Below are positions 3,744 to 23,134 of a stretch of DNA of 28,434 nucleotides, one piece after another. The stretch is from the IMG/VR virus record IMGVR_UViG_3300022226_000017, positions 1 through 28,434 of that record; one strand, written 5' to 3'. The notes beneath the pieces were generated by a model. That model ran no database searches. It was given only the letters and a program-made list of their open reading frames with translations, and had not been told where the DNA came from. The stretch is from a virus. Both the position numbers and the translations under genes were made by a program. The stretch's first letter is position 1. Every line of letters begins with the position of its first letter.

Positions 3744-4202
3744 TCAGAGCTCCGGTGCTGTCCTCGAACCGGTGATCGCGGCGGCGGCCTTCTTCGCCCA
3801 TCCGTTCGCGCTCATCTTCTCGGCCGAGCGGCCCACAATCCACACGCTGCAAACTCCGCCCCAAATGTAGGCGAAATTCTCATCTATGGCGATCGGCTGA
3901 CCGAAAGGAGATGCGATCGTCTGGACGACATACATGGCCAAGCCGGTGTAAACGATGGCCGGCCGCGCGCGCTTCGTGAAGCTGTCGCCCTGCGCCATTT
4001 CGGCGACGATGACATCCCTCACCTGGGCATAGCGCGCCTGGACGTTCTCCATGATGGCGAGCTCGAGGCCTGCCATGCGGTCCGCGTCCTTTTGCCTGAA
4101 TTGCTCGCGCTCCTCTTTGGAGAGCGTGAACTCGTCGGCGATCGCCGCGCCCTGCTCGAGCGCCTTGCCAAACAATCCGCCGATCATGTCCTTAAGTGCC
4201 AT
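3744..4202 (-). CDS. Holin, 3-TM / GTA-release type
   Basis: 152 residues from ATG 4202, with GAGGAG about seven bases upstream. The start overlaps the endolysin stop by 11 bases. The N-terminal ~75 residues are amphipathic and charged with LSKEEREQFRQKD. Then comes ARPAIVYTGLAMYVVQTIAS (~83-102) and a second hydrophobic span FAYIWGGVCSVWIVG (~115-129). The charged helix followed by the ARPAIVWTG-like turn is the signature of the phage 3TM holin family related to gene-transfer-agent release (PF11351-type). It would form the inner-membrane lesion that lets the amidase reach the cell wall. Only two clear spans are visible. Confidence 0.8.
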   Translation of the reverse strand: MALKDMIGGLFGKALEQGAAIADEFTLSKEEREQFRQKDADRMAGLELAIMENVQARYAQVRDVIVAEMAQGDSFTKRARPAIVYTGLAMYVVQTIASPFGQPIAIDENFAYIWGGVCSVWIVGRSAEKMSANGWAKKAAAAITGSRTAPEL

Positions 4203-4896
4203 GGTTTCGCTCCTCGAGTGCGTCAATGGGTTGGGATGCGCGCGCGGCTGCGTCGGCCTTGGCCGCGAGCTCCGGATCGTCGGGATCCGCGCGCTCGCCG
4301 CGGTAGTCGTTGGCGAGCTTGCCGAAATACCACCAGTCGAAATTGTCGCCTTCCCCGTCTTTGCGGCCCGACGGGTCGTACTTCGGCCGCTTGCCGCTGC
4401 CGGCCTCAATGGCCGCCCAGCGCACTTGATCGTGGCCGGCGATCGCCTCTTTCGGAAAGCCGAAGCGCGCCTCGAGCTCGATCACGAGCCGCGCCAGCGA
4501 TTCGTATTGCACGCGCTCGAAGCCTGAGTTGATCGTGCCGACGAGCTCCACGCCAAGCGTCCACTTATTGCAGTCGGCGCGGCCGTTCAAGATCGAGGCG
4601 CCGGCATGGTAGGCCTCCTGGTCGTATTCGACGAGCTTCCAGACTTCGCCATCGCGCCCAATCAGCAAATGCGCGCTTGCGTACATTCGCTCGGCCGGCC
4701 AAGTCGCCTCCTTCATGTAGTGGCGCCGTGCGGCCCGAGGGAGGTTGAGATCGACGAAGAGATCCCGGCAGATGCCCATGTCGTAGAGATTGTCGGGGTT
4801 GACGTTCTTGGCGGAGAAGTAGTGCACGACGAGGCCATCGACTGACTTGAGCGGCCGCGACGGGATGCAGTGACTTGGCAAGATCTTACTGCGCAC
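4192..4896 (-). CDS. Endolysin, N-acetylmuramoyl-L-alanine amidase (Amidase_2)
   Basis: 234 residues from GTG 4896, overlapping the end of the giant gene by 11 bases; TTG 4881 is an alternative start. The fold matches AmpD-like amidases: zinc ligands H25 (VVHYFSA), H155 (AGHDQV) and D174 in KYDPS, with likely catalytic E117 (LGVELVG) and K172. The YHAG at 96-99 and the SAHLLIGRDGE strand are also typical. The enzyme cuts the bond between muramic acid and L-alanine in peptidoglycan. There is no signal peptide, so it should depend on the holin encoded directly downstream. The last ~35 residues are a charged Ala/Asp tail without a known cell-wall binding domain. Confidence 0.9.
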   Translation of the reverse strand: MRSKILPSHCIPSRPLKSVDGLVVHYFSAKNVNPDNLYDMGICRDLFVDLNLPRAARRHYMKEATWPAERMYASAHLLIGRDGEVWKLVEYDQEAYHAGASILNGRADCNKWTLGVELVGTINSGFERVQYESLARLVIELEARFGFPKEAIAGHDQVRWAAIEAGSGKRPKYDPSGRKDGEGDNFDWWYFGKLANDYRGERADPDDPELAAKADAAARASQPIDALEERNHGT

Positions 4897-7800
4897 CGAG
4901 ATCCCCGGCGGCGAGCTCGGCCTCGAGCTCCTCGATTTGTCGGCGGATCTCCGCCGGATTGATCGCAAGCCGAACCTCGCGAGTGATCTGATTGCGCGCC
5001 CGATGGAGCTCGTTAATCGCATCGCGTTTGGCCTCCGCTGTGAGCTCGCGGTCGGCCTCAATGCGGTCGATCGCGTTTTCGATCTCGCGCACCTGGCTCG
5101 CGGCCTGCTCGAGCGCCGAGTTATTCGCCTGGAGCACTTGGCGCGTTGAGTCGCTCACGTAGGCCTCGATGCGGTCCGGTGAGCGGTCCGATATCAGGTT
5201 GATCGTGGCGACGACTTCGCGCGTCTCGCGCAGCATCGCATAGAGATCATCTTGCGATTTCGTTCGACGCAGCGGTCCGTCGTCGACGAAGGACCGCAGC
5301 AAGATATTGTCGCGCCAGGTCCGCGCCGGCGGGATGCCGCCCTCGCTGAGATCTCCGACGACATAGTCCGCCGCGCCGAGTGCCCAGGCGCCGAGCGTGC
5401 CGAAATAACCGCGGACAAGGTGCTCGGCCTTGAGCGGCGAGATCCCGAGCTTGCGACCGAGCGCGATCATGGCGTCGGACGTGTAGGCCTGGTACTGCTC
5501 GGCCGGCTCGACGGCCTCGAGCCATTGCGGAATGATCGGCGCGCCGGTGAATTTCTGATTACGCCGCAAGTCGTCGAGCGGCGCGTAGGCTTGCGGGATC
5601 GGGTTGAGCGAAAAGGTCTCCATCGCCATCCATAGCATCGCATCCGCGAGCTCGGTCTGGTCGTGGCTGTACATGTATTCGACCATCCGCTCCGGCAGCG
5701 TGCCGAATAGCGCGCCCGTCTCGAACGGCTTCGGAATGATGAGGTAGTCGTCTTCGCCTTCGCCGGTGAAGAAGATCCAAGAAAGATCCTTGATCCACTC
5801 CGGGAGCTCCTGATAGCGCTCGTCGTCCTTGTTCATCATGTACAAGATCAGACTCGGCAGCGTGATCGCAAGCCCGGCGCGAAGCGCGTAGGAAAAAGCT
5901 CGAGCTCCTAGAAACTTGAAGCGACCGGAGCGCATTTCGCCGGCCTCGCGCGCCACCCGGTAAAGCCCCTGCATGCGTGCGTTCAGCGGCCACACCGAAA
6001 GCGTGATGACGCGCAAGGCGTCGGAGCTGCCGTGCATGGCGAAATCGGTGGAGATCTCGCGGCCGGCGAGCGCCGCCTCGCGCGAGCTCACGCCTCGAGC
6101 TCTGAGCGCCTTGAACTCCGCAATGCGGTTCGCGTACTCGAAAGCCGACATGAACTCGTCGTAACGATCGAGCATCTTGTCCGGCGAGTCGATGACGTGA
6201 TCGACGTTGATGCCAGACGCCTGCGCCATCGAGGAGTAGCCCCCGCCGTTCGCCATGTAGAGCCAGTAATGCTCGTCGTTGTAGATCCGCTCGAGCAAGG
6301 CCTTGGTCGGTGCGGCGATCGGGACGATTTGCCCGCGCGAGAGAGTGAAGGCGTTCAAGGTGTCGCGGATGAAATTCTTAATTTGGAAATTCGGCGTGGC
6401 GGTCACGCCTCGGCGCAGCACATTGGAGAAGCCGCCAAGCACGTTGACCCAAAAGTTATGGATATTCGGGCCAAGATGATTGATCGCCTCGTAGAGCCCC
6501 GGATCCGCGATCTCAAAAAAGCGCTTCTTGCCGGCCTCGAAATAGAAATCTATGTTGCCCTTCGGATCCTGGCCGCGCTTCCAAAAAGCGACGTAGCCAT
6601 CGAGGTTCGACGCGAGCATGTCGATCATTTCGACGATCGCAATTTCTTCTTCGGATCCGACGAGCCCGGTCTTGGCCATGCGATACCAAGTCATATCGAA
6701 GCCGAGGCCCTCGACGAAGGCCTTGAGCACTTGCGCCTTGTCGATCGTGACGCGCGTGGTATCGGTGCCGATCGGCGCGGCGTAAAGCGCGGCCGTTTGA
6801 TTGTCGGCGCCCTCGAGCATCCGGTAAAACTTGCGCTTCCCGTCGTTGATTAAGCTCATCTGCACGAGCCGCGACATGTTCGAGACGATATTGTCGAAGA
6901 CGTCGTTGACGTTCGACGTGCCCCCCTTCAAGCGCATGAACGGCGAGCCGCGCTTCGGCCGCATGACGCGCTGATCGCCAGTGATCTCGTCGATGACGCG
7001 GTTGAAGGGAACGTAGTTTTTATTGATCTCCTCGATGGCCCTGCGGCTGTCGGGCGAAATGATCCCCGACTGCTCGTAGAAATCGAGCATTCGCTTGGAA
7101 AACGCGAGCCACTTGTCGAAGACGCGGCCGAGCTCGGCGTCCTCGTCACCGAGCCTCAAGCCGGCGGCGATCTCATCCGGACGCATGAGATTCTCGCGGC
7201 CCTGGTCTTGGAGCTCCTGGGCGCGTCTCGCCACCATGTAGAGCTGCATGGCGTCCATGCGATCCTCGACCGATGCGAAGACGTCCTTTAGGCCTTCGCC
7301 GGTGAATTCGATATCGCCCTCGGCGGTCCAGCCGATCGTGCCGCGATAAAACACCGCGCGCACGATGCCGTGAGCTCCTCGAGCCAGGCGAAACGCCTTG
7401 TAGGGCGAGTCGGTCGCATCGGCCACTTCGCCACGGATCTGCCGCTCGGCCTGCTTGAACGGCCGAAGCTCGTCGAAGGTTTTTTGTAGGAGCCGGTCAC
7501 TCCACTGATAAAAAATCTCGTTGAACCGTTGCGAGATCGAAAGCTTGTCCTTGCCGATCTTCGACGCGAGCCGAGCTCGATCGCCCTGCAGATGCCAAGC
7601 GTGCATGAGCTCTTGCACCGCGTAGAGCGTATCTCGAAGCTTCGGATGCTGGTCGAGCTCCTCCATGAAGGCATCGTAAAAACCGGGCGCGTGCTCGCGA
7701 GCTAGATGCTCCTGCGTGAACCACAGCCGGCCGAATTCGGCGAAGCCCTCGTAATCCTTCGTGACGTCGTAGCTCACCGTGAGGACCTCGGTGAGAAAGC

Positions 7801-10800
7801 CGGGCTGCTGGTAGAGCGCTTGGATCCACGGATAACGGCCGTCGAGCCAATGCGAGATCTCGTGCGCGATGACTTCCAAGTCGTTGCGGTGCCGCGATCG
7901 CACTTCGCCGTGGCCAGGCCGAAAGAAGCCGAGCCGCGACCTGGGGCCCTTGACGCGACCCTCGTAGATCTTGGCGCCGAGTCCACGCTCGAGCGCTTTC
8001 AAAATGTGCCGGCGCCGGACGGGATTTTTCGGGATCCGGACCGTTCGGCCGTTGCCGAGCTGGTACTGGTGGTCGGGCGTCAGCGGGAGATTTCCGAGCC
8101 GGCCAGTGATCGGCACGTAGTTCGTGCCAGCCTCCATGTCGAGCGGCCTCGAGGAATAGAGCACCGTGCCCGGCGGGGATTCCCCGGGGCGAGCTCGATG
8201 CCCGAAGGCGCGCTTTTCGCTGCGTCGGGCCTTGAGCTCGAGGAGCGCGTCGTTGCGTTGCTCGGCACCGGTGGCGGTCGAATTCGGATCCGCGCCGACC
8301 GTGATGCCAATACCCTCGAGCTTGCCTTTAGACGTCTCGACGACTTGCTCCTCGAGATCCGCGGCCACGAGCTCGAGCTCCTCGGTGAGCTCGGCCATGC
8401 TGTCCGCCCTTACCCATATTTGCCCACTTCCTGCGTGATAGGCGTCCAGGCCGCGCCGGCGGAGCGCTCGGCCGGCGGCTTTGAGCACAGCCTCCCCGGC
8501 TTCGTCGCCTAGCGTCTTGGTGAGCTCGGCGAGCTCGTCGATTTCAACGGCCGCAAGCGCTTTGGATTCGCCGGCCGCTTCGAAGGCGGCCATGTTCTCG
8601 AGGCCGGTTTCCGGGTCCGAGTACTCGGCGTCGATCGCGTCTTCGAGATCCGTCTGCCGGCGAGCTTCGCTGAATAGGTCGCCGGGATCCCCGGTCTCGA
8701 TTGAGTCCTGGCCGGCGTTTCGGGCTGCGTCGCGTCGGCGCTCCTCATCGGCCATCGCTTGCGCGGCGGCGGTGTCGTCGCCGAATAGGTCGCCATCGCG
8801 CTCGGCCATGCGGGCCCGCTCGGCCTGGCGCGCGCGCTCGATCGTGCCGCCAAGATGTGCGGGGTTTTCTGGCTGCGTCAGTATCGGCACACGGCCAAGT
8901 GGGGCCGCCAGCCGTTGCGGCTCGGCGCGCGGGCCTGCGCGTGCCAGTGGCGGGACGCCTTGCTCTCGGACCACTATGGCCGGGATCGCCTCGGCGCCTA
9001 GCAAGTAGGCCGCGTCGAGCCGGTGCCCGCCCTCGAGGACATAGGCGCCCTCGGCATCGAGGACCACTATGAGCGGATCCATGCGGCCGGATCCGCGGAT
9101 CTCGTCAGCCAGGGCCCGGCTCCTGGCGAGATCGTCCGCGACGCCGGTGAGGAGGTTCGGCGATTTGCCCGCGTAGAAATTCGAGAGCGGCACGCGCTGA
9201 ATCCCGGGCTCTACTTCATAGCCGGCCGTGAGCGACGCGGCGATCGAGCTCGTGTTGGCGACGTCGGTGCCGGCAACGTACGGACCAAGCGAGTCGCCTG
9301 GCTCGATGCGGTCGAATGACGTCGCTACTTCTTGGGCTTGGGTGGCGGCTTCGCCTGGCTCGTCGGCTTGGTCCGGACTATCGGCTGCCGGCCGTGCAAA
9401 CGGTTGAACCTCCGCAGTTTCAGGATCGAACCGAATTTCTTGGCCATTTAAGAGCGCCTCGATCAGCGTGGCGGCTTCGACCGCCGTGAGGTTGCCGGCC
9501 AGTATACCGGACACTTGCTCGGAGTAACCCGCCTGGTCGGCGAAGACAACGAGCTCGTAAAGCGCGCGGTCCTCGCCGGTCATTTCGGGCAAGTACTCGG
9601 TTTCCTCGAAAAACTCTCCGGCGTCCTCATAAGCCGCTACAGGCGCCGGACCGGGTCCCATGGCCTCCCGTGCCTCCCGGCGCAGCGTTCGGGCAGCCTC
9701 GAGCTCCTGGCGCACATAGGCGAGATTCTCGGGGTGGGTTCTCGATTCCGTGACGACGTCGAGCATTGCAGCGACGACTCGCGCCTCACGCACGCCGAGC
9801 TTGCGGCCGTCGAGCGCCTTTTCCACGGCGTTTCTGACACGCTTGACGGACATGCTCGTCGATGGCTCGGTATTGAGCGATTGGAACCATTCGGGATTGA
9901 CCGACGGCGTGCGGCTGATGATTCGATCGTTGTCGTCGTAGATCGGGATGCCGGCTTGCCCGCCGACGACGAGCTCGTCAGCCAGCGCAGCGAGCGCGAC
10001 GCGATGCGTCTCGCGCACAAGCCTCGGATCCTCGGAGAGCGGCCGAGGCTCCGGGATCGGCTCCGGTGCGGACGGTGCGGACGGTGCGGACGCTGGCGCC
10101 GGCGTGGGTTCTGGCGTGGGACGCGAGGCCTCCGCGCCGGTAGGGCTCGCGTCCTGGTCGGGCGCCAGTCCCGACTCGCGGGAGTCCATGTCGGCCACGA
10201 GCTCGCGGATCTGATCGCGGAGCGTTGCCATGGCTTCGTCGGGTTCCGTGACCGTGCCGAGATCGGACGCCAGGCGCTCGAGCTGATCGAGCGCACCGAT
10301 GACGTTGCCGGCCTCGAGCATCCGAGTGACATGGCCAAACATCGCGCGGTCGCCGGTCTTGGCCTCGAGCGCGGTCACGGCCTCGATGAGCGGCACGAGA
10401 CGCTGGTCGACGAAAGGCGGCGAAGCGGGCGCCGGAAGGCCCGAATCCGGTGCTGTGCCTGCGCTTCCCGGCGTCGACGAATCACCTGCAGGAGCGGTGG
10501 GCGGCGGTGCGGGAGCGGGGGCAGCCGTGGGCTCCGGCCCTGCGCCTGGATCCGGAGCTCCTCGATCGACGTCGGGCGGAATCGTAGGCCCGGCGGGGCC
10601 TGTAGGCGGTGGTGTTTCGCGTGGAACCGGATCCGCGTTGAAGTACTCCTCGATGTTGACCGGGCGCCGGCTGAGTCGGCCAGCCTCCCGCGAGCTCGCC
10701 ATGGTGCCGGCCGCCACACCGCCGAAGGTGCCGCCGGCGAGCGCTGCAAAGAAGCCTTGCTCGGCCGCCTCGCCGAATGACATGGCCGTCTCGGTGCCCC

Positions 10801-12220
10801 ATCGCTCGGCGACATACTCGAGCATCCCCTCTTGCACGGCCTCGGTCAGCGCCTCACGCCCGGCGGCCTTGCCCGTCTCGGTCACGGTCCTAATGGCCGC
10901 GCGCTTCAAGCCTTCGCGGAGAATCAAGGCGCCGATCTCCTCCCGGGCTTTCGACAAGACGCCGGCCTCGGCGATGCCCTTGGCTCCGACGCGCTCGAGC
11001 AGGGCCGAGCCGATCGCAAACGGGAGCGCCTCGAGTTGCTCCTGCAGGGAGACCCGCTCGAGGCCTTTGGCTTCGGCGCGGCGCTCGCCGAGCTCCTCCG
11101 CTCGAGCGGCGATGTAGGCCGGAAACGTGAACGGCGTTAAGACCGCGATCATGTCCGGGACCGACTCGATGCCCGTCTCGATGCCAAACTTGAGCACGGA
11201 GCCGAGCGTCTCGGAAACGTCGCCTTTGTCGTAGGCCTTTTTGATCTCGTCCGGCGTATTGCGGCGTTCGCCTCCGAAGTCTCGCCGGCGAAGATACTCG
11301 GGCATGATCTCGGTAAAGAGATTTTCAAACGCCTGGCTTTCTTCGCGCTGCTTGACCTCGTCGGCGTTGAGATACCGGACGCGGAACTTGCCATCATCCG
11401 GATCGCCTTCGCCCCAATCCGAGCCGAAAACGATTTGACCGAGCGGCAGCTTGCGCTCGAGCGCCTCGCCCGGAAGTCCGACGATGCCCTTGATTGCTGC
11501 ACCGAGTAGCGAGCTCCCGCGCTCGGCTGCCAGGCGCGCCGCGTTCGAAAAAAAGCCGTGCCGGCCGGGCGGCTGTCCGTAATCATCCGCGACGGTCGGC
11601 ACGGCTAACGGCGGTGCCGTGGGTTTGAGGTAGGCGTCCATCGAGCTCGAGGCTGCTTTCGAGATCTCGGTCGCCTGTTCGTTGGTGTCGGCCGATGGCC
11701 ATTCGATGCCGCTCGCGATCGCGCGCTCGATGGCGTCGCCGGCGTCGAGCTCGCGGCCGTCGTAGACAAACGGAATCACGGTCGGGCGGCCGCCGTTGAG
11801 GCGCTCGTCTTCGACGGATCCGGATAGGATCGTGTGAATCCCGCGATCGTCTGTAAAGCCGGCGCCGGTCTCAAGGTTGCGCCGGCCGTGCTCGATCAGT
11901 GGCTCGAGGTTCGGATCCGGGCGCCGCGAGCTTGTCGGTTGCGGCTCGTTGCGATCGGCAAACTCGTCGAGCGTGCCCAGGAGCTCGCCGGCGCGCGCGC
12001 GGTTGCGGGTGTTTGCTGATTTGAGCAAGTTGTCGATTCGAGCTCGAGGATCCTCTCGAGGCGGCCCGACTTGCGGATCGACGGCGAGCCCGAGCTTGCG
12101 CCGATACGCGATCGGGTCCATGTCGGAGTAGTGCTGCTTATAGATCCGAGACGCGAGCGCCTCGTCCGTGAGATCGGCGTATTGCGGGTACTGCTCCCGG
12201 AAGTCTGCCAGCCCTGGCAC
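4886..12220 (-). CDS. Giant polyvalent ejection protein (ParB-like, GGDEF-like, zincin, LPD38 regions)
   Basis: 2444 residues starting with GTG 12220. In order: 1-48, an N-terminal FREQYPQYADLTDEALA motif common to phage internal virion proteins; ~120-198, a domain with IP-V-DG; ~225-510, hydrophobic and amphipathic helices; Pro/Ala-rich linkers ~530-600 and ~685-730; ~985-1085, a ParB/sulfiredoxin-like fold (IRGSGRMDPLIVV, VLEGGHRLDA); ~1200-1345, a GGDEF-like region with TGLENMAAF and a degenerate GSGQI in place of GGDEF; ~1440-1500, a zincin with HEISH (1453-1457) and a likely third ligand in YEGFAEF; ~1930-2290, a region like large polyvalent domain 38 (PLNARMQGLYR, IPKPFETGALFGTLPE); then a coiled coil to 2444. 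Such proteins are packaged, injected with the DNA and thought to act in the new host. The activities are inferred from motifs. Confidence 0.85.
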   Translation of the reverse strand: MPGLADFREQYPQYADLTDEALASRIYKQHYSDMDPIAYRRKLGLAVDPQVGPPREDPRARIDNLLKSANTRNRARAGELLGTLDEFADRNEPQPTSSRRPDPNLEPLIEHGRRNLETGAGFTDDRGIHTILSGSVEDERLNGGRPTVIPFVYDGRELDAGDAIERAIASGIEWPSADTNEQATEISKAASSSMDAYLKPTAPPLAVPTVADDYGQPPGRHGFFSNAARLAAERGSSLLGAAIKGIVGLPGEALERKLPLGQIVFGSDWGEGDPDDGKFRVRYLNADEVKQREESQAFENLFTEIMPEYLRRRDFGGERRNTPDEIKKAYDKGDVSETLGSVLKFGIETGIESVPDMIAVLTPFTFPAYIAARAEELGERRAEAKGLERVSLQEQLEALPFAIGSALLERVGAKGIAEAGVLSKAREEIGALILREGLKRAAIRTVTETGKAAGREALTEAVQEGMLEYVAERWGTETAMSFGEAAEQGFFAALAGGTFGGVAAGTMASSREAGRLSRRPVNIEEYFNADPVPRETPPPTGPAGPTIPPDVDRGAPDPGAGPEPTAAPAPAPPPTAPAGDSSTPGSAGTAPDSGLPAPASPPFVDQRLVPLIEAVTALEAKTGDRAMFGHVTRMLEAGNVIGALDQLERLASDLGTVTEPDEAMATLRDQIRELVADMDSRESGLAPDQDASPTGAEASRPTPEPTPAPASAPSAPSAPEPIPEPRPLSEDPRLVRETHRVALAALADELVVGGQAGIPIYDDNDRIISRTPSVNPEWFQSLNTEPSTSMSVKRVRNAVEKALDGRKLGVREARVVAAMLDVVTESRTHPENLAYVRQELEAARTLRREAREAMGPGPAPVAAYEDAGEFFEETEYLPEMTGEDRALYELVVFADQAGYSEQVSGILAGNLTAVEAATLIEALLNGQEIRFDPETAEVQPFARPAADSPDQADEPGEAATQAQEVATSFDRIEPGDSLGPYVAGTDVANTSSIAASLTAGYEVEPGIQRVPLSNFYAGKSPNLLTGVADDLARSRALADEIRGSGRMDPLIVVLDAEGAYVLEGGHRLDAAYLLGAEAIPAIVVREQGVPPLARAGPRAEPQRLAAPLGRVPILTQPENPAHLGGTIERARQAERARMAERDGDLFGDDTAAAQAMADEERRRDAARNAGQDSIETGDPGDLFSEARRQTDLEDAIDAEYSDPETGLENMAAFEAAGESKALAAVEIDELAELTKTLGDEAGEAVLKAAGRALRRRGLDAYHAGSGQIWVRADSMAELTEELELVAADLEEQVVETSKGKLEGIGITVGADPNSTATGAEQRNDALLELKARRSEKRAFGHRARPGESPPGTVLYSSRPLDMEAGTNYVPITGRLGNLPLTPDHQYQLGNGRTVRIPKNPVRRRHILKALERGLGAKIYEGRVKGPRSRLGFFRPGHGEVRSRHRNDLEVIAHEISHWLDGRYPWIQALYQQPGFLTEVLTVSYDVTKDYEGFAEFGRLWFTQEHLAREHAPGFYDAFMEELDQHPKLRDTLYAVQELMHAWHLQGDRARLASKIGKDKLSISQRFNEIFYQWSDRLLQKTFDELRPFKQAERQIRGEVADATDSPYKAFRLARGAHGIVRAVFYRGTIGWTAEGDIEFTGEGLKDVFASVEDRMDAMQLYMVARRAQELQDQGRENLMRPDEIAAGLRLGDEDAELGRVFDKWLAFSKRMLDFYEQSGIISPDSRRAIEEINKNYVPFNRVIDEITGDQRVMRPKRGSPFMRLKGGTSNVNDVFDNIVSNMSRLVQMSLINDGKRKFYRMLEGADNQTAALYAAPIGTDTTRVTIDKAQVLKAFVEGLGFDMTWYRMAKTGLVGSEEEIAIVEMIDMLASNLDGYVAFWKRGQDPKGNIDFYFEAGKKRFFEIADPGLYEAINHLGPNIHNFWVNVLGGFSNVLRRGVTATPNFQIKNFIRDTLNAFTLSRGQIVPIAAPTKALLERIYNDEHYWLYMANGGGYSSMAQASGINVDHVIDSPDKMLDRYDEFMSAFEYANRIAEFKALRARGVSSREAALAGREISTDFAMHGSSDALRVITLSVWPLNARMQGLYRVAREAGEMRSGRFKFLGARAFSYALRAGLAITLPSLILYMMNKDDERYQELPEWIKDLSWIFFTGEGEDDYLIIPKPFETGALFGTLPERMVEYMYSHDQTELADAMLWMAMETFSLNPIPQAYAPLDDLRRNQKFTGAPIIPQWLEAVEPAEQYQAYTSDAMIALGRKLGISPLKAEHLVRGYFGTLGAWALGAADYVVGDLSEGGIPPARTWRDNILLRSFVDDGPLRRTKSQDDLYAMLRETREVVATINLISDRSPDRIEAYVSDSTRQVLQANNSALEQAASQVREIENAIDRIEADRELTAEAKRDAINELHRARNQITREVRLAINPAEIRRQIEELEAELAAGDLGAQ
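5351..6433 (-). other. LPD38-like region of the giant protein
   Basis: Residues ~1930-2290. It begins with FSNVLRRGVTATPNFQIKNF and IRDTLNAFTLS. It then runs through the ISTDFAMHGSS segment and LSVWPLNARMQGLYRVAREAG. A membrane-like stretch (ALRAGLAITLPSLILYMMN) follows, then LPEWIKDLSWIFF, IIPKPFETGALFGTLPERMVEYM and the NPIPQAYAPL segment. This series is the hallmark of the polyvalent-protein-associated C-terminal domain 38 in phage ejection proteins. Its biochemical role is not known; the hydrophobic segment suggests membrane contact during DNA entry. Confidence 0.75.
7691..7933 (-). other. Zincin metallopeptidase segment of the giant protein
   Basis: Residues ~1430-1510. VIAHEISHWLDG gives the HExxH zinc motif (H1453, E1454, H1457), and DYEGFAEFGRLWF about 35 residues on offers a glutamate as third ligand. 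The EGFAEF after HExxH is usual for metallopeptidase-like modules in phage polyvalent proteins. All catalytic residues visible are intact, so proteolysis of a virion or host protein is plausible. Confidence 0.65.
8186..8623 (-). other. Degenerate GGDEF-like segment of the giant protein
   Basis: Residues ~1200-1345. The order of elements follows a diguanylate-cyclase fold: PETGLENMAAF in place of the usual DxLTGLxNRRxF; VEIDELAELTKTLGDEAGEAVLKAAGRAL in place of DIDxFKxxNDxxGHxxGDxxLxxxAxxL; then AYHAGSGQIWV in place of the R-GGDEF strand; and GIGITVGA near the end. The GGDEF signature itself reads GSGQI, so cyclase activity is unlikely and nucleotide binding at most is expected. Confidence 0.6.
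8951..9268 (-). other. ParB/sulfiredoxin-like segment of the giant protein
   Basis: Residues ~985-1090. VPLSNFYAGKSPN, ADEIRGSGRMDPLIVVLDAEG, YVLEGGHRLDAAYLLG and IPAIVV follow the ParB N-terminal pattern, where the GxxR-type phosphate loop here reads EGGHRLDA. ParB-like modules are frequent in injected polyvalent proteins, where they may bind nucleotides (CTP-type) or cut DNA. Which applies here cannot be told. Confidence 0.65.
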
Positions 12221-12230
12221 GACGGAGCTG

Positions 12231-13118
12231 CTAGCGAAGCCCGAGCGGGTCGTTGGCTTTGCCGCTGAGATTCTGGACGTCGATTCCCATGGTCCGCGCG
12301 GCCTTCGCTACCGCCTGGCGGTGCCCGATCATGTTGCCCTTACCGCGCTCGGTCCTAAAGATCCGCTCGGCTTCTTCGGCCACGGCCGCCACGTTTTGCG
12401 CGACGTCCTTGCTGAGTCCGGAGTAGCGCTGCGTGACCGGATCCCAAAATCCGCCATAGAGCTCGCCGCTGGCGTTTGCGATCGCATTGGAGTCCGACGC
12501 GCCGATCGTTCGGGAAGCGTCCGGCTTGCCGCCATCCGGGCCGGCCGCCGCGTCGCGGCGCTCCGATCGCGAGCTCACGTCTTCATAGGGTTGGCCTTCC
12601 CAAAATATTTCGCCATCACGACTGACGATATCTTGCGACATGATGCGGTCTTCGCTGGCCCATCGGCGCGTGTGCATCTGCAGGGTCGATTTCTGCTTTT
12701 CGGCTTCTTCTCGAAACCACTTGTCCGAGTACTCGACCGGTAGCATGGATCCGCTCATCGCGCCCGACTGGATCATGTCTTGGCGAAATTGTTTGTAGTT
12801 GCTCGCGTCGATCGACTCGCGCATCGCCTCTATGACGTTGACGCCCGAGATCATCGAATTGATGTAGGAATTTCGGAGGTTCGCGGCCTCGTCGAATAGC
12901 CCTTGAGATTCCATCGCCTCGATCTGTGCCGGCGTCTGCTCGATTTGCTGGCGGATCTTCTTCGCCTTCTCGCGCTGCGCGATGACATTCTTTCGCTCGG
13001 TCTCCGCGTCGGTCAGGATCGCGTTGCGAAGGCGGCTCGTTTTGATGGCTTCGACGTCGCGAACGGTGCGACCCATGTCGAACGTCTGGAAACCCTGGCC
13101 GAAGTTTTGAACGGGCAT
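12231..13118 (-). CDS. Probable internal virion/ejection protein, helical
   Basis: 295 residues from ATG 13118, with AGGAG eight bases upstream. Residues ~25-75 are a strongly charged coiled coil (ETERKNVIAQREKAKKIRQQIEQ), followed by helical stretches. The C-terminal part has AVAEEAERIFRTERGKGNMIGHRQAVAKAARTMGI. There is no signal peptide and no enzyme motif. It sits between the DNA-transfer-type protein and the giant polyvalent protein, a place usually filled in P22-like phages by the second of three ejection proteins (gp7/gp20/gp16 set). Its assignment is by position and composition, not by recognised homology. Confidence 0.7.
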   Translation of the reverse strand: MPVQNFGQGFQTFDMGRTVRDVEAIKTSRLRNAILTDAETERKNVIAQREKAKKIRQQIEQTPAQIEAMESQGLFDEAANLRNSYINSMISGVNVIEAMRESIDASNYKQFRQDMIQSGAMSGSMLPVEYSDKWFREEAEKQKSTLQMHTRRWASEDRIMSQDIVSRDGEIFWEGQPYEDVSSRSERRDAAAGPDGGKPDASRTIGASDSNAIANASGELYGGFWDPVTQRYSGLSKDVAQNVAAVAEEAERIFRTERGKGNMIGHRQAVAKAARTMGIDVQNLSGKANDPLGLR

Positions 13119-14742: not shown

Positions 14743-15216
14743 CTAGTCCTCGAGTTGCTTGGTGGGATGGGGCGCCAGGCCTTCGAGCTCGTCGAAGCTG
14801 GGGACGGTCAGCCGATCAGCCATCCTAGTGCCGTCGCGCTCGTCAGTCGGATTCGCATGGACCGTAAGCCAAATGGTAGCAGAAAAGGTGTGACCCGCTC
14901 GCTTGAGGCCGGCCGGGCTCCGAAAGACGTTGAGGCCGGTCAAGCGCTTGGTCCCTTCTTCGGTCGCGACTTCAATGTCGCCGATGACGATATTGACGCA
15001 ATCGTGCTTGTGGATCCGGCCGGTGAGCACGGTATCGGCTGGGATCTGGAGCTCGCGCACATAGACGTGGCTCGCGAAGTGATGCAGGACCGGGAGCTCG
15101 GTCACCGCGTCCGGACAGGCGAGTAAAGCGTCCTCGAGGCGGCAGATACGCTCGCGAAATTCGCGCTTAGCCGTAGGCAAGCCAGCCGGTCGTGCCGCTG
15201 TCTGTGGTTTTGACAT
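14743..15216 (-). CDS. Cupin-like phage protein
   Basis: 157 residues from ATG 15216, with GAGG four bases upstream. It overlaps the tailspike gene end by 50 bases; a longer frame exists but lacks as good a start. The core (LPVLHHFASHVYVRELQIPADTVLTGRIHKHDCVNIVIGDIEVATEEGTKRL ... FRSPAGLKRAGHTFSATIWLTVHANP) follows the double-stranded beta-helix pattern of small cupins. H-K-H in GRIHKHD and H in VHANP are possible metal ligands. Such genes are common next to tail genes in tailed phages. No substrate is known to me, and a structural or chaperone role is possible. Confidence 0.75.
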   Translation of the reverse strand: MSKPQTAARPAGLPTAKREFRERICRLEDALLACPDAVTELPVLHHFASHVYVRELQIPADTVLTGRIHKHDCVNIVIGDIEVATEEGTKRLTGLNVFRSPAGLKRAGHTFSATIWLTVHANPTDERDGTRMADRLTVPSFDELEGLAPHPTKQLED

Positions 15217-17389
15217 AGAGCCTCGTGCCGGGGGATCCGGTCGTATTGAAATATCGGTCGCCGGCGGATCCGTAGACCGCACCCTCGGGCGTGCCGTCGC
15301 CGCTCGAGAATCCCGGCAACGTATCGACGTAGATCCTAAGCTCCGATAGCCAGCGCTGAAAAGCCGAGTCGAAGACCGGGCCGAGATACGGAGGCAGCCG
15401 GCGCGGCTTGACGGGCGACGGCGTCAACGGACCGGGCCCGGCCGCTGCGGTGCCGGCTGCCGTCAATGCGGGGAGCGATGGCGTGCCGGTGGCCGAGATT
15501 CCCCCGACGGAAGCGGTGCCGGCTGCCGTCAATGCGGGGAGCGATGGCGTGCCGGTGGCCTGCCAGTCCGTGCCGATTTGCGGCGAGCCGCTCGCGAGCA
15601 TAGGCGTCGTGCCGTCGGGTAGGACGTGATAGATCGGGTCGTCGGTGCTCCACGTCAGGCTGGCGCCGTCGAGCGTCATCTGGTCGGCGCCGTAGTTGAT
15701 GCTCGTGATCGTCCGGATGGCTCCGCTCGAATTCGGCAAATAGACCTTTTGCCCCACGACGCCGAGATAGGACATTCCCCAATCGTCTCGGAAGCAGAAA
15801 ATATGCCCAGCCTTGAGCGTGATCGTGTTGCCGGTGCCGCCGCTGGCCGCCTCGCCTACGGGATCCGCGTTATTGACTTGAGCGCCGCCGGCGGTCGGGT
15901 TGAATGCGGCCGTCGTGCGATCGCCGGCGTCCGGATCTCCGACATAGCTCGGCCGCGTGTTTTGGTTGTTGGCGAAGACGTTCGGATAGTCGGTGTCGCC
16001 GTCTTCGAAATTGAAGGTATCGAAGGCGCCGGACTGCGGCCGAAATTCACAATCCACAGCGACGGCGCTCTCAGTATCGACGAGGTTGGCCCGCACGCGG
16101 AGCCCCTTCCATCCATTGTCCTCGATGCCGTCGGGGATCCCCGGGTCGTTGTCTTCGTTGTTGGCGAAGCGCCGGAAGTACGGGCGCGAGAAGACCGGGA
16201 CTTGGAGCATGTCGAAATTGCAATTCATCAAATCGCAGTAGAGGAACATGTCCGTGTAGGCGGACGCGGCCGCGGTCGTGGTGATGAAAGAGCCGATCGA
16301 GCCGAGCTTGTACGCGGTCAGATGCAGGATCTTGACGCGCGAGATCGAGCCGTCGCTGCCATGGTCAGTGATCGTATTGCACTGGAAGAAGCGATCGCGA
16401 CAGTCCCATGCGAAGCAGCCGAGAGAAATGACGTGGCCGGTCTCGTGCTTGCTGGCGGGGTTGTCTTGCTGATCGCCGGCGCGGTTCGCGTTTCGGTAAG
16501 TGCAAAACTCGAAGGCCTGCGGGCCCCAAGGATCATAGGCGTCATTCGATTGATTGCCGCCCGATGAATCGTAAGCGCGCATGCCGAGCGATATCGTGCC
16601 GGGATCCTCGGTCGCCCGATGGTAGCCGTTAAAGTCGCACTCTTGCCAAAGGAGATCCTGGCCGACTGGCTCGGTGTTGTTGTGGCCACCCTCGGCCCAC
16701 CGACACAAATAGAAATAAAAGCGCGTGCCGATGATGCGCAGATAGTCTCCCCAATCCTGATTATCTTGGCCCGGCTGCCCGAGCGTCGTCGGGAAGTCTT
16801 GCGTATCGGTCGTGCCGTGCGGGCCGGGGAAATCGACGCCAATGAACTTGAATAGGTCGCAATTGATGTCGAAGGAATTGCCGAAGTAGTGCCGGCCGCC
16901 GCGAACGATGAAGCTCGAGGGCGTGCCGTCCGGCGTGCCGTCGCCATTGCCGAGAAAAAAGAAGTTCGAGCAGTTGACGAAATCGAGTTGCCGATAGGCC
17001 GGATACCCGTCGTAGTTATCGACCGCCCAATCCGCCTCGTCGCCGAGCTCTAGCGATCCGCTCGTGCCGTCGTTCTCGGCCTGGATCGTAACGAAGCTGT
17101 TCGCATTGCCCCATAGCGCGCCCATCGCGCCGCCGGTGGTCGTCGCATTGATGCGGACCGAGGCCCCTGGCCTTATGCGCAACGTCCAATGATTGCCGGT
17201 CGTGCCGCTGTAAACGCGAAAGCGCTCGGTGAACTCATAAGACGAAAGCCCGTAGAGCTCGACGACGTCGCCGGCGCCCCATCCGCCGCCGTAGGTGCCC
17301 TCGAGCGATGCGTATGTCAGCCGCCGGTTGACGAAGGATAGGCCGTCGTTTCCGTTGTCGCCGCCCTGGCCGCAAAAGTAATCAGTCAT
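15167..17389 (-). CDS. Tailspike-like protein with beta-helix body
   Basis: 740 residues from ATG 17389, overlapping the previous stop by eight bases. Residues ~1-520 are Asn/Asp/Gly-rich beta repeats (FVNCSNFFFLGNGDG, LLWQECDFNGYHRATED and similar) consistent with a right-handed parallel beta-helix, as in P22-type tailspikes. Residues ~610-650 hold two copies of a 22-residue GTPSLPALTAAG repeat. Then comes an amphipathic helix, and the last 46 residues (GDGTPEGAVYGSAGDRYFN ... LYVKTTDSGTTGW) match a C-terminal motif widespread in phage tail proteins. It probably binds and may cut surface polysaccharide; catalytic residues are not identifiable by eye. Confidence 0.75.
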   Translation of the reverse strand: MTDYFCGQGGDNGNDGLSFVNRRLTYASLEGTYGGGWGAGDVVELYGLSSYEFTERFRVYSGTTGNHWTLRIRPGASVRINATTTGGAMGALWGNANSFVTIQAENDGTSGSLELGDEADWAVDNYDGYPAYRQLDFVNCSNFFFLGNGDGTPDGTPSSFIVRGGRHYFGNSFDINCDLFKFIGVDFPGPHGTTDTQDFPTTLGQPGQDNQDWGDYLRIIGTRFYFYLCRWAEGGHNNTEPVGQDLLWQECDFNGYHRATEDPGTISLGMRAYDSSGGNQSNDAYDPWGPQAFEFCTYRNANRAGDQQDNPASKHETGHVISLGCFAWDCRDRFFQCNTITDHGSDGSISRVKILHLTAYKLGSIGSFITTTAAASAYTDMFLYCDLMNCNFDMLQVPVFSRPYFRRFANNEDNDPGIPDGIEDNGWKGLRVRANLVDTESAVAVDCEFRPQSGAFDTFNFEDGDTDYPNVFANNQNTRPSYVGDPDAGDRTTAAFNPTAGGAQVNNADPVGEAASGGTGNTITLKAGHIFCFRDDWGMSYLGVVGQKVYLPNSSGAIRTITSINYGADQMTLDGASLTWSTDDPIYHVLPDGTTPMLASGSPQIGTDWQATGTPSLPALTAAGTASVGGISATGTPSLPALTAAGTAAAGPGPLTPSPVKPRRLPPYLGPVFDSAFQRWLSELRIYVDTLPGFSSGDGTPEGAVYGSAGDRYFNTTGSPGTRLYVKTTDSGTTGWLAYG
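15447..15560 (-). repeat. 48-base perfect direct repeat, 66-base period, in the tailspike gene
   Basis: Bases 15447-15494 and 15513-15560 are identical, offset by 66 bases (22 codons), and encode the ATGTPSLPALTAAGTA unit twice. The identity at DNA level suggests recent duplication or conversion. Confidence 0.95.
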
Positions 17390-18791
17390 CGAGCACGGTC
17401 ACGGCCGCATAGGCGGCTTTGATCGTAACCGCGCATGGGTCGGAGACTTCGACCTCGAATTGCTTGTTTCTGGCGATGCCGAGATTTCGGAAGACGGCGC
17501 GGCGATCGGTCTGGCCCACCTTGCCGAGCGGTGCGAAAAGTTGCGAAGACCAAACGCCATGATCGTTCGAATGACGTAGCCGGATTTGCGGATCCGCGGT
17601 CGGATCGGTGGTCGAGCCGCCGGCGATATCGACGACAACCTCATGCCAGTCGAGAAGGTGATTATTGGCGTGATGGATCTGCGTCACGCGCCGACGGATG
17701 AGCGGCTCGCCGGCGTCGGTGAAATGCGTTAGATCGAGCCGATAGTATTTGCCCTCGAGGCGCGAGCCGACGACGTTGACCGCATCGAGCGGGCCGGCGC
17801 CGCCGGCGCGGTACGCGGTCCCATCGCCGAGCGCGCGGCTCTCCCACATGTTCGCTCGAATGTTGAAGACGAGCGACGGTGTCCCGGGGTCGAGGTTCAG
17901 CACATAAAACGACTTGCCGGCCTGCTTGTAGATGTAGGCGGACGCGGCGTTTCGATGCGAGAGAAGCGAGAGCTCGTGCTCTTGCTCGTCGCCGGATATC
18001 ACGGCGCCAGTCTGGCCCTGGAAGCGATACACGAATAGGCCGCCCTCCGGAGTCGTCGCGAGCATGAAGACGCCATCGTCAGACTCGGCCAGTGTATCCG
18101 GCGCCGCGAGCCCGACTTCGTGCGTGGCATTGAGCATGAGCTCGTAGGGAAAATCGGCGTTGCCGGTGTTGTAGTAAAGCTGGGTCGTGACCTCGCCCAT
18201 GATGTAGAGAATCGACGCCGTCGCCGCGTGGCCTTTGATGTTATCGGGCTGCACGCTGGCGGCCTCAAAATCGAGCGCGTTCCAATCGGTAGGATCCTCG
18301 ATCGCGCTGATGTAGAAATTATCGGTCCCGACGTCGTTGACGATGAAAAAGCCGTCCTTGTAGACCACATGAGAAGGCGCGCTCGGAAAGTCGAGATCCG
18401 TGATCGTGGCGAAGGTGGTCCCGTCGTAGGTGTAGCCGGTCGTGCCATCGACGATGCACAAGTAATTGCGGCCGCGTGCCATCCTGCAGTAAGCCGAGCT
18501 CGTGGCGAGCGTCCCGATCTCCGTCGCGCCGCTCGTTTCGATCTTGACGAGCTTCGTGCCGAAGACGGCGTATAGCGCACCCTTCCATGGGAGCATCTTT
18601 GACGTCCGGACCGGGCCGTCGCCGGCGTCGCCGAGCTCGACCAGCCCGGGCGCCGTCTCGAGCACAATCGGCGCCTTGGATCCAAAGCCCTTGACCGCCG
18701 AAATAAAATTAAGCGTCTCCTGATTGGAGACCAACATCGAGCGATCTTTCGCGGTGGGCCCGATGAAAGGTATTTCGATGCGGCGCGGCAT
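17382..18791 (-). CDS. Tail hub / packaged-DNA stabilisation protein, P22 gp10-like
   Basis: 469 residues from ATG 18791, fused to the previous stop as TAATG. The N-terminus (IPFIGPTAKDRSMLVSNQETLNFI) followed by ETAPGLVELGDAGDGPVRT is the typical opening of the P22 gp10 / phage stabilisation family. Repeated beta blades follow (LYAVFGTKLVKIE, RNYLCIVDGTTGYTYDG, HVVYKDGFFIVNDVGT, SILYIMGEVTTQLYYNTGN), and the C-terminal half has a WDH-like fold. It is expected to close the portal channel below the gp4-like adaptor and receive the spikes. Length matches P22 gp10 (about 470). Confidence 0.85.
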   Translation of the reverse strand: MPRRIEIPFIGPTAKDRSMLVSNQETLNFISAVKGFGSKAPIVLETAPGLVELGDAGDGPVRTSKMLPWKGALYAVFGTKLVKIETSGATEIGTLATSSAYCRMARGRNYLCIVDGTTGYTYDGTTFATITDLDFPSAPSHVVYKDGFFIVNDVGTDNFYISAIEDPTDWNALDFEAASVQPDNIKGHAATASILYIMGEVTTQLYYNTGNADFPYELMLNATHEVGLAAPDTLAESDDGVFMLATTPEGGLFVYRFQGQTGAVISGDEQEHELSLLSHRNAASAYIYKQAGKSFYVLNLDPGTPSLVFNIRANMWESRALGDGTAYRAGGAGPLDAVNVVGSRLEGKYYRLDLTHFTDAGEPLIRRRVTQIHHANNHLLDWHEVVVDIAGGSTTDPTADPQIRLRHSNDHGVWSSQLFAPLGKVGQTDRRAVFRNLGIARNKQFEVEVSDPCAVTIKAAYAAVTVLDD

Positions 18792-19411
18792 TAGAGCGGG
18801 TAGACAATTTGCCAGCCGGCGAAAATCCCCTTAGTGCCGGACGCGGTGAATGCAGAGCTCGCGCCGAACAAGCCGAACGTGATCGTTCCATTGGCGGCGA
18901 GCTCCGCCCACACTTGCGTCGATATCGAGTTGTCGATTGCCTCCGACGAAAGGCGCCGCGTGGCGGATGGACGCAGCGCCGCCGGGATTCCGCTCATTAC
19001 TAAACCGGCTTGATCCGACGTCGCGGAGATCTCCGACTCCGCCCACATGACGACGAAATCGCCGAACCGGCGCCAGTTGATCGTGCCGGTAATTGGCTCG
19101 CCGATGAGCCCGGTAAAGGAGCCCGTAAAGCTACCAGCGACGAGCGGGTTTGAATTGAGCTCCTCGGTGATGAGGTTGCCGTCGGTGTCCTCGATGCGGA
19201 CGTCGCAATCTTCATCGACCCAAATCTCCGCGCGGCCGGATCCGGAAAGAATGACCGGATTAGCGTGCGCGACTGTGAGCGCGGAGTCCTGATAAATCGA
19301 GATCGGCGTATTGGTGCCTGGCTCGTAGACGTTGACCTCGCCGGCCGCCAGCGGGGCACCGAGCGCGTTAGTTACTCGGTGGCGCTTGGACAAGATTTGT
19401 CGGATAGCCAT
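18791..19411 (-). CDS. Fibre/tip protein with head-binding-type N-terminus
   Basis: 206 residues from ATG 19411, with GGAGA upstream and adjacent to the stop of the gp4-like gene (TAAATG). Residues ~10-80 (GAPLAAGEVNVYEPGTNTPI, IYQDSALTVAHANPVILSGSGRAEIW) match the N-terminal virion-attachment module of many podoviral spikes and fibres. Residues ~105-206 look like a beta-sandwich tip (WRRFGDFVVMWAE ... GTKGIFAGWQIVYPL) of a receptor-binding or C1q-like kind. It may be a short secondary fibre beside the larger beta-helix spike. The function is inferred from motif and place. Confidence 0.7.
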   Translation of the reverse strand: MAIRQILSKRHRVTNALGAPLAAGEVNVYEPGTNTPISIYQDSALTVAHANPVILSGSGRAEIWVDEDCDVRIEDTDGNLITEELNSNPLVAGSFTGSFTGLIGEPITGTINWRRFGDFVVMWAESEISATSDQAGLVMSGIPAALRPSATRRLSSEAIDNSISTQVWAELAANGTITFGLFGASSAFTASGTKGIFAGWQIVYPL

Positions 19412-20813: not shown

Positions 20814-22037
20814 CTACCCCCAAAGTCGGACGCCGAGCTCCGGGTAGATTGCCTTTGCGCCGAACAAGATATCAAGCCGGATGATTTCCTCGTCCTCGTC
20901 GATATCGTACGCCTTCACCACGCGGATCGAATAACCGCGCCAGTCCGCACGCGCCTTGAAGACGGCCGAGTCCGGGAGCTCGAGCGGCACCGTGACGAGC
21001 GCGAGTGCGTTCTGGTGATAGCCCAAGTTTTGCGGATAGATCGTCGCGGCCGTGCCGAGAATCGTAATCGCGGCATTGTTGGCTGGCAGCGCCGAGACCG
21101 TTTGAAAGGCCGCCGTCGATGCGGTCGTCCCGTCGTTCAGATCCGGGTAGACCGTTGCGGATCCAGCGCCGGCCGTGGTGGCGACGTCAGCGGTCACTAC
21201 GAATTGCTGCAGATAGCTTAGCGTCTTCTTGCTGACCGGATTGACCGCGAACACGCCGGCCATTGTGAAGATATCGCCCGCCTTGAGCGCGCCGGCCTGC
21301 GAGCCCGTCATACCGTCGAAGGCGACGACGTTGGTGTCATTGGTGAACGAGGCATCATTGACGAGCGGCGTGCCCGTGTAGGTGCCGACCGTGTGATTCT
21401 CAATGTTCTGGTCGCCGTAGATATCGAGGTTTGCCAGGCGGCCGAGCCGTCCCGAGCGCACCATGCCGTGAACGATATCCGCATTGAAGACGCCGCCGGA
21501 TCCGGTGCCGCCCAAACCATCGGCCAAGCCCCAGCGCGCATCAGGATCGACAATCAGCTTGCGCATGCCGTCGTCGGGCACGCCGCTATTGTCCATCCGC
21601 TTCGCGACGGCAGCCAGGGCGGTGAAGTCCGCCGGCGTGGTCCCGGGCGTACCTACCGAGTTGAAGAAGGCGAGCGCGCCCTCGGCCGCGAGTGCGACGT
21701 CGATCTCGTTCGCAAGGGTAATCATCGCCGGCTTAACGTAGCGCTCGGCATACTCCTCGATCGTGAGCGTGAGATCTTGCACCGAGAACGTCCAAGAGAC
21801 GTGCTTGCGGTTATTGATGACGATGGACGTCGTTTCCTCGATGACGTCCGAATTCGCGCGCGTGGCGCCGTCGGTCGCCTTGAACTTGACCGGCTTTCGG
21901 ATCGTGACCGTGTTGCCGATCTTGACGAATTCGCGCTTGTACTGCCGATGGACGTTGTGCCCCATCACGCAGTTATTTTCCAAGTGAAAAAGCGCTTCTT
22001 TCGCAATCACCGTCGGGGTGATGAGTGTATTGGCCAT
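20814..22037 (-). CDS. Major capsid (coat) protein, P22 gp5-like
   Basis: 407 residues from ATG 22037, with GGAGGG about nine bases upstream. The opening ANTLITPTVIAKEALFHLENNCVMGHNVHRQY, followed by KIGNTVTIRKPVKFK, NRKHVSWTFSVQDLTLTIEEYAERYVKPA and a C-terminal DEEIIRLDILFGAKAIYPELGVRLWG, follows the P22-type coat family (HK97 fold with I-domain). It is the expected immediate neighbour of the scaffold gene and is followed by a strong hairpin. Length is close to P22 coat (430). It would form the icosahedral shell with scaffold assistance. Confidence in the family is good from pattern and gene order. Confidence 0.85.
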   Translation of the reverse strand: MANTLITPTVIAKEALFHLENNCVMGHNVHRQYKREFVKIGNTVTIRKPVKFKATDGATRANSDVIEETTSIVINNRKHVSWTFSVQDLTLTIEEYAERYVKPAMITLANEIDVALAAEGALAFFNSVGTPGTTPADFTALAAVAKRMDNSGVPDDGMRKLIVDPDARWGLADGLGGTGSGGVFNADIVHGMVRSGRLGRLANLDIYGDQNIENHTVGTYTGTPLVNDASFTNDTNVVAFDGMTGSQAGALKAGDIFTMAGVFAVNPVSKKTLSYLQQFVVTADVATTAGAGSATVYPDLNDGTTASTAAFQTVSALPANNAAITILGTAATIYPQNLGYHQNALALVTVPLELPDSAVFKARADWRGYSIRVVKAYDIDEDEEIIRLDILFGAKAIYPELGVRLWG

Positions 22038-22084: not shown

Positions 22085-23134
22085 CTATGAGTTTTGAGCG
22101 GCTTTCTCGATTTGCGAGCGGCGTATTGCCGCATAGTCGTCCATTTCTGCCGTCTCGAGATTCACAGGTCTTTCTGACACTCCCGAATCTCGATTCTCGG
22201 AAGGCGGGTCGCCGGCCTTGGTGTCGCCCGGTCGGCCTTTGCCCTTACCGGCCGCCTTGCCCTTGCCAGCGGTTTCGCCACCTTTGTCGTCGTCTCCGCC
22301 TTTGCCCTTGCCGGTCTCGAGTTGGTCCTCGAGGCCTTTGATGAGCTCGCCGGCTTTCGCCTTGGTCTCGAGCTCGGTCAATCGGCGCTTCGCGTCAGCC
22401 TTCGACTCGTTGAAAATCTCCTCCGCGATCTCGTGATTGTCGGAGAGATAGACGTAGAGCTCGGGCCCGAAGTCCGAAGCCAGGATGAAATCGCCCATGG
22501 CTTTATTGACTGAGACGTCTTGATCCTGCAGCGCGAGGAGGAACTCGTCGCCGAGCTTCTCTTTGCCGCGATCGGAAAACTTCGTTAGCTCCTCATCGGA
22601 CGCTCGCGGCGGTTGGGCCGTGCTCGAGCTCGATGCGTCGCTCGCTCCGTTTGCCTTGGGGTCGGTCTTGGCCTTGGCCCGCTGGCGCTTTGACGATGCC
22701 GTCTTAGCCTTCCAGTCGGCGTAAGCGTCCGCGAATTCTTCCGGAGTATCGAAGTCCTTAAGGACTGGCTTCGTCGGTGTCGGGAGTTGCCCCCGGACAC
22801 TGTCGAGCTCTTGCGTGAGCTCGGCGATCTTCCGCTCATTCGCGTTTGACCGATCGCGCTCGGCTGCGAGTTGGCGCTGCAGGATCCGCATACGCTTTTC
22901 GCTGTGCCGGTCGCGCGGCTTGCGCTGATTAGCTTGCTGATTTTTGGGATCCGTTGCCGAATCGGATTCGTTTGAGCCGTCCGAAGACTTCGACTTGTCC
23001 TCGTTTGGTTTGGCGGCTGCGGCGGCCTCGTCGGTTTGCTGCCCTGACGATTCTGTCTCATCAGTCACCACCGCCGTATCGGGTGGCCGGGGGGCCTCGT
23101 CTTCGGTTGAGACCTTGCTAGGCTGCGTCGTCAT
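22085..23134 (-). CDS. Scaffolding protein, P22 gp8-like
   Basis: 349 residues from ATG 23134, with AGAGGAG about eight bases upstream. The protein is acidic and hydrophilic with a disordered N-terminus. A coiled coil at ~75-118 (EKRMRILQRQLAAERDRSNANERKIAELTQEL) precedes the scaffold-like VLKDFDTPEEFADAYADWKAK (124-144), a Ser/Ala linker, a helical core ~185-270, a Lys/Gly-rich segment ~282-312 and a C-terminal DDYAAIRRSQIEK helix. Position directly before the coat gene and composition fit a P22-type scaffold that directs procapsid assembly and then leaves. The basic C-terminal end would be the coat-binding part, by analogy with P22. Confidence 0.8.
   Translation of the reverse strand: MTTQPSKVSTEDEAPRPPDTAVVTDETESSGQQTDEAAAAAKPNEDKSKSSDGSNESDSATDPKNQQANQRKPRDRHSEKRMRILQRQLAAERDRSNANERKIAELTQELDSVRGQLPTPTKPVLKDFDTPEEFADAYADWKAKTASSKRQRAKAKTDPKANGASDASSSSTAQPPRASDEELTKFSDRGKEKLGDEFLLALQDQDVSVNKAMGDFILASDFGPELYVYLSDNHEIAEEIFNESKADAKRRLTELETKAKAGELIKGLEDQLETGKGKGGDDDKGGETAGKGKAAGKGKGRPGDTKAGDPPSENRDSGVSERPVNLETAEMDDYAAIRRSQIEKAAQNS

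Follow-up and report, generated by a model that had tools for sequence, protein, structure and literature searches.

The stretch of DNA analyzed here, referred to as the window, is the IMG/VR virus record IMGVR_UViG_3300022226_000017; it comprises 28,434 bases, in which no tRNA genes were found, and is apparently a fragment of a viral genome. Its minus strand carries a portal-like end (27609 to 28421), a scaffold gene (22085 to 23134), the major capsid gene (20814 to 22037), the head-closure gene Hc3 (17382 to 18791) and candidate ejection genes, followed by a giant open reading frame (ORF) of 2,444 amino acids. The giant runs uninterrupted from its GTG start codon (12220) to its stop codon (4886), and this start is credible because the giants of related phages open with the same N-terminal motif. 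The protein of 2,444 residues originally noted at 4886 to 12220 is thus a real, single-frame ORF, its location on the minus strand having been left unstated.

Genes for products of 535 and 295 amino acids (aa) lie between a short-tail-fibre-like gene (14743 to 15282, minus strand) and the giant. The 295-aa gene directly upstream of the giant (12231 to 13118, minus strand) occupies the slot of candidate ejection proteins, and its product shares 32 to 38% identity with that of the gene directly upstream of the giants in two IMG/VR relatives, L016 and L094; same-place relatives of the 535-aa gene adjoin the giants of these two as well. Directly downstream of the giant, an ORF for an amidase-type endolysin (4192 to 5061, minus strand; phrog_9611, E 1e-13) is 65% identical to its positional counterpart in L016 and L094, and since the homology starts only around residue 56, the true start of the endolysin is probably beyond the stop of the giant. 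The capsid (42%) and Hc3 (29%) of the window are related to their counterparts in Vibrio and Thalassomonas phages, in which a block of small coiled-coil genes is followed by the giant and then by the tail spike. The giant is thus placed among virion structural genes, a position it shares with its counterparts in Vibrio, Thalassomonas and Shewanella phages and one in which P22-like phages keep their ejection proteins. A gene for 206 aa at 18791 to 19411 (minus strand) begins with about 80 residues that match the N-terminus of the gene directly following the giant, which in Shewanella phage X14 is the tail spike; because of this matching start, the receptor-binding gene seems to have been relocated. 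In addition, the tail-gene region harbors a 740-aa ORF without a PHROG match (15167 to 17389, minus strand), whose start looks tail-spike-like by eye.

A tblastn search of phages with the giant yielded 153 records, none of which covered 80% of the query. The matches fell into three parts, i.e., residues 4 to 57, 222 to 488 and 1344/1391 to 2411, and the middle of the protein differed between phages. The first part contains the motif FR..YPQY.D..D..L...Y..YS (12050 to 12211, minus strand) and is 31 to 45% identical over 41 to 57 residues to the giants of Vibrio, Shewanella and Thalassomonas phages, L016 and L094. This conservation agrees with the virion-type motif that had been proposed for the N-terminus, and by analogy with the N-terminal signal of P1 DarB (PMC9024508), residues 4 to 57 are a candidate capsid-targeting signal. 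Residues from about 100 to 204 (11611 to 11923, minus strand) resemble, by eye, repeats in other phage virion proteins, and a search for the wider occurrence of residues 101 to 204 returned one weak match to a Roseobacter phage (E 3e-4). The second part is an N-terminal body domain (residues 222 to 488; 10757 to 11557, minus strand), which is delimited by blastp homology (37 to 41% identity to the giants of other phages) and has no recognized fold. Membrane-active helices, which had also been suggested, found no support: hydropathy revealed no confident transmembrane helix in the N-terminal body, the best 19-residue means being just 1.3 to 1.5, although residues 222 to 488 are conserved. Residues 701 to 955 (9356 to 10120, minus strand) are common only to the closest giants, those of L016 and L094, with 38 to 41% identity (E 1e-28 and 3e-40).

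In the middle of the giant, Pro/Ala-rich linkers set a ParB-like segment apart from a GGDEF-like domain. The ParB-like segment (residues 1005 to 1086, motif LEGGHRLDAA; 8963 to 9208, minus strand) matched phrog_3264, a profile without a curated cut-off, at E 1.2e-4, PF02195 with a within-record E value of 4.3e-5 and a score of 18.5 bits, which is under the curated cut-off of 26.3 bits, and the NCBIfam model Noc at E 0.0033. The conserved pocket Arg (GxHR) is present as GGHR at residues 1064 to 1067, and a ParB family protein at E 0.2 was the sole match of the whole giant in a PDB sequence search. No relatives of the segment were found in homology searches, including L016 and L094, and the ddrB-ParB model (PF18763) had no match in the window by hmmscan at E thresholds of ≤1 or 0.001; 3 of the 17 giants scanned do match it. 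Residues 1005 to 1086 are a probable ParB-type DNA module, judged by sequence. The ParB-like fold put forward earlier retains moderate sequence support together with the GGHR motif, but lacks a confident structural model (pLDDT mostly <55).

The zincin and the LPD38-containing C-terminal half of the giant (residues ~1391 to 2430) are referred to as the chassis. Its mostly helical C-terminal portion (residues 1600 to 2430; 4931 to 7423, minus strand) includes LPD38 (PF18857; residues 2133 to 2302; 5315 to 5824, minus strand), and the match of 153 bits (E 1.3e-44) against a cut-off of 27 bits substantiates the predicted LPD38-type region. LPD38 was present in all 17 giants that were scanned together. 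A scan with the C-terminal alignment detected 71 viral loci, and genome contigs contributed 5 more. In the distant group of Vibrio phage 1.232.O, PTXU04 and phiARM81mr, only the LPD38 half is held in common, without this zincin. The structural model of residues 1600 to 2444, which is fairly confident (pLDDT 81.6, pTM 0.78), had no match in the PDB at E ≤0.001 and matched 58 predicted viral structures at the same threshold, many of which are named large polyvalent protein domains. The middle cargo of the relatives is a methyltransferase, a helicase, a GNAT-like, RadC-like or ddrB-ParB domain, or GGDEF. By sequence comparison, the giant is a constant chassis with exchangeable middle cargo, and the chassis is common to more than 70 phage loci.

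The zincin-like metallopeptidase domain spans residues 1391 to 1555 (7556 to 8050, minus strand) and contains HEISHWLD at residues 1453 to 1460 and EGFAEF at residues 1491 to 1496. HEISH (1453 to 1457), followed by D1460, is the only HExxH of the giant, and the motif alone is weak evidence because 67 of 2,000 shuffled sequences contain one. H1453, E1454, H1457, D1460, E1491 and E1495 are invariant across 17 diverse giants, which together with the downstream EGFAEF helix corroborates the intact metallopeptidase motif of the original prediction. Among the chassis relatives whose N-terminal side is complete, nearly all have HExxHxxD; the patterns used to find the 71 loci contained EGFAEF, whose conservation there is partly by construction, but that of HExxH is not. 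The model of the domain is mostly above a pLDDT of 90, and a profile match of the region to a solved LF-type zincin domain (E 0.0012) was obtained, the fold-search lists having been filled by GGDEF rows. An Asp three residues past HExxH marks a widespread group of phage MPTases according to Iyer et al. (PMC5512222).

Residues 1197 to 1343 (8192 to 8632, minus strand) are confirmed as a true, albeit degenerate, GGDEF-family domain by profile, homology, model and fold match. PF00990 gave 12.8 bits (E 0.0013 in this record) for the window alone and scored above its cut-off for the same domain in L016, L041 and L096; blastp of the window domain against L041 resulted in an E value of 6e-16. In an AlphaFold model of residues 960 to 1600, the domain has a pLDDT of about 95, the best 50 Foldseek rows are GGDEF-containing structures throughout, and the best VIA-align row has a Z score of 16.0 (rmsd 2.1 Å over 140 residues) against a solved GGDEF domain. 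Since the underlying alignment included intact homologues, the model is not independent of the homology. The degenerate cyclase-like fold that had been proposed is nevertheless borne out. The domain as a sole query retrieved no close relatives from viral contigs and phage matches only at E of about 0.7 to 0.9, whereas relatives surfaced via the whole giant plus an alignment. Scanning with intact members detected at least 80 loci, from which 53 nonredundant members were compared; once the window is counted in, 42 of 54 sequences sit in ORFs of at least 1,000 aa. GGDEF is accordingly more frequent as a cargo of giant phage ORFs, and the phage GGDEF family is larger, than previously described.

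The window reads VEIDELAELTK and GSGQIW where the family has VDxDSLKWVND and [SG]GDEF. All 53 family members keep the G, D and E of GDEF, which are replaced by S, G and Q in the window. In VDxDSLKWVN, the first Asp, the Lys and the Asn are likewise invariant (53/53; E, A and T in the window), partly by construction, as the search patterns were DSLKWVN or LTG; GDEF was not part of them. Starting the search from intact members also disfavors degenerate ones. The window thus lacks the GG[DE]EF signature and the metal and GTP residues, and because every catalytic residue checked is lost, its GGDEF domain should not make c-di-GMP. In the tree, it groups with the intact L101, L094 and L016 (support 0.91) on the longest branch. 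As these neighbors keep GGDEF, an intact ancestor is most likely, with the loss placed on the window's own branch. Relatives with [SAG]GDEF may well be active enzymes, since a tested cyclase tolerates a change of the first residue of GG[DE]EF, and activity is possible with, e.g., AGDEF (PMC3974145).

The presence of several disparate domains in a single large ORF among virion structural genes places the giant in the polyvalent class, as had been proposed. We consider it likely, with a probability of roughly 0.7, that it is a polyvalent, ejection-type protein of a podovirus-like phage, built on a shared chassis with exchangeable cargo. From the position of the gene and, by analogy, the proteome of Burkholderia phage JC1 as well as P1 DarB, we infer that it is packaged in the virion; a literature search with the terms used found no report on virion proteomics of close relatives. 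Mass spectrometry of CsCl-purified JC1 virions identified the LPD38 giant gp69 by 51 unique peptides (PMC9144972). Together with the LPD38 half, the N-terminal motif and body would take the giant into the head and would also mediate its exit during DNA ejection; no solved ejection protein resembles the model of the chassis, so that the fold does not support injection. The zincin would probably cut the giant into parts, before or after delivery. Such autoproteolysis is not assured, given that the virion RNA polymerase of N4 contains an MPTase yet is packaged uncut according to Iyer et al. (PMC5512222). The delivered cargo would consist of a probable ParB-type nuclease or NTPase and the catalytically dead GGDEF domain, which may be a relic, a spacer or a noncatalytic binding or interaction module. 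The idea of a multi-effector package delivered with the DNA is weakened by the loss of the cyclase residues, by the zincin being likelier part of the chassis, and by a ParB-like segment of only moderate support.

Among the more specific readings, it is possible, if tentative, that the pseudo-GGDEF domain has been retained for a noncatalytic job, either as a binder of GTP or of a cyclic dinucleotide or in holding and gating the adjacent zincin. The fold and the C-terminal tail G.RA.xGE.PPG are kept over about 150 residues, the giant of the window, like those of L016 and L094, has its GGDEF domain directly before the zincin, and the GGDEF domain of FimX, which is noncatalytic, is among the fold matches. 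However, a recent relic would look identical, the alignment shows no correctly spaced RxxD inhibitory site of the canonical kind, and the GGDEF domain of L041 is located near the N-terminus, far from its zincin, so that adjacency is not needed. Selection on the domain cannot be judged from a single degenerate sequence. It is rather doubtful that the zincin targets host proteins as an effector instead of being a processing enzyme: Iyer et al. (PMC5512222) list this function as possible, but the zincin belongs to the constant chassis and not to the variable cargo, which better fits a structural or processing role, and since nearly every chassis relative with an intact N-terminal side has it, it is likelier a processing or packaging part than an added effector. 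More speculative still is the proposal that GGDEF is a regular injected cargo in this phage group and that the window's version serves as a pseudo-enzyme, i.e., a sponge or sensor of a host nucleotide signal or a regulator of the neighboring protease. An active multi-effector, in which the injected GGDEF domain would go on producing or consuming a nucleotide signal beside the protease and the ParB module, is quite improbable; the fold is well kept and a tested cyclase tolerates a change of the first position (PMC3974145), but the window differs beyond that position (first Asp → E, K → A, N → T, G → S, D → G and E → Q). A sequencing or assembly artifact can practically be dismissed, even though only a single metagenomic contig without a second copy was seen, because the changes are spread across about 45 codons with homology in frame throughout. 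A frameshift was rejected, as no other frame of the window carries a hidden GGDEF motif.

An ejection-type polyvalent protein with a constant chassis and exchangeable cargo can be compared with several known systems. In Iyer et al. 2017 (PMC5512222), GGDEF, MPTase, ParB-like and LPD38 domains are all described in polyvalent proteins, and the set of domain kinds is therefore not new. The polyvalent proteins described there likewise are giant multidomain ORFs in the context of virion genes, with an MPTase bearing the Asp past HExxH and with LPD38, which is said to be phage-only. In contrast to them, the GGDEF domain of the window is catalytically dead and its ParB-like segment is not Pfam ddrB-ParB by hmmscan; the exact domain combination was not met in the accessible text. 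The giants of L016 and L094 share 43 to 45% identity over GGDEF, zincin and chassis as well as the linker and the neighboring genes, and in L101, GGDEF, HEIAH and the chassis are ordered as in the window; all three have an intact RIGGDEF, unlike the window. The giants of Thalassomonas phage BA3, Vibrio phage FGH and Shewanella phage X14 have the chassis, zincin, N-terminal motif and body and genome position of the window, but are devoid of GGDEF, and the two that were scanned, FGH and X14, carry methyltransferase cargo instead. JC1 gp69, likened here by its description, is also an LPD38-bearing podovirus giant, but the DarB-like protein is larger (4,515 aa) and has helicase/methylase, lytic transglycosylase and LPD3 cargo (PMC9144972). 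For phage polyvalent proteins, the giant provides a clean picture of exchangeable cargo on a constant chassis, namely the zincin and the LPD38 half.

What is new is the catalytically dead GGDEF cargo and its combination with a ParB-like segment outside the ddrB-ParB model. Furthermore, there is evidence for a distinct GGDEF family of phages, marked by a tail motif of its own, that recurs in giant ORFs and as small stand-alone proteins. The intact relatives raise the question of whether a phage supplies the cell with a ready-made cyclic-dinucleotide synthase, for which the window would be a natural dead counterpart. Free-standing GGDEF proteins of about 152 aa were observed in Bordetella phage CN1 (L014:11956-12411) and Pseudomonas phage Epa38 (L015:5838-6299). 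These Yuavirus/Vojvodinavirus proteins show the subfamily signature and tail motif of the window, with the catalytic motif intact in contrast to the latter, and the features shared with the giants suggest an exchange between small and polyvalent forms. GGDEF and an LPD38-type chassis were also seen together in the giants of L120, L141 and L149; HExxH was not found in those of L120 and L149, and the only one of L141 is located far upstream of the chassis. Finally, the L016 giant (L016:3155-13417), in which the ParB-like segment was not found, as in L094, differs from the window by a RadC-like JAB domain at about residues 1653 to 1746, which one other giant also has; RadC is reported by Iyer et al. 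(PMC5512222) only from polyvalent proteins of conjugative elements.
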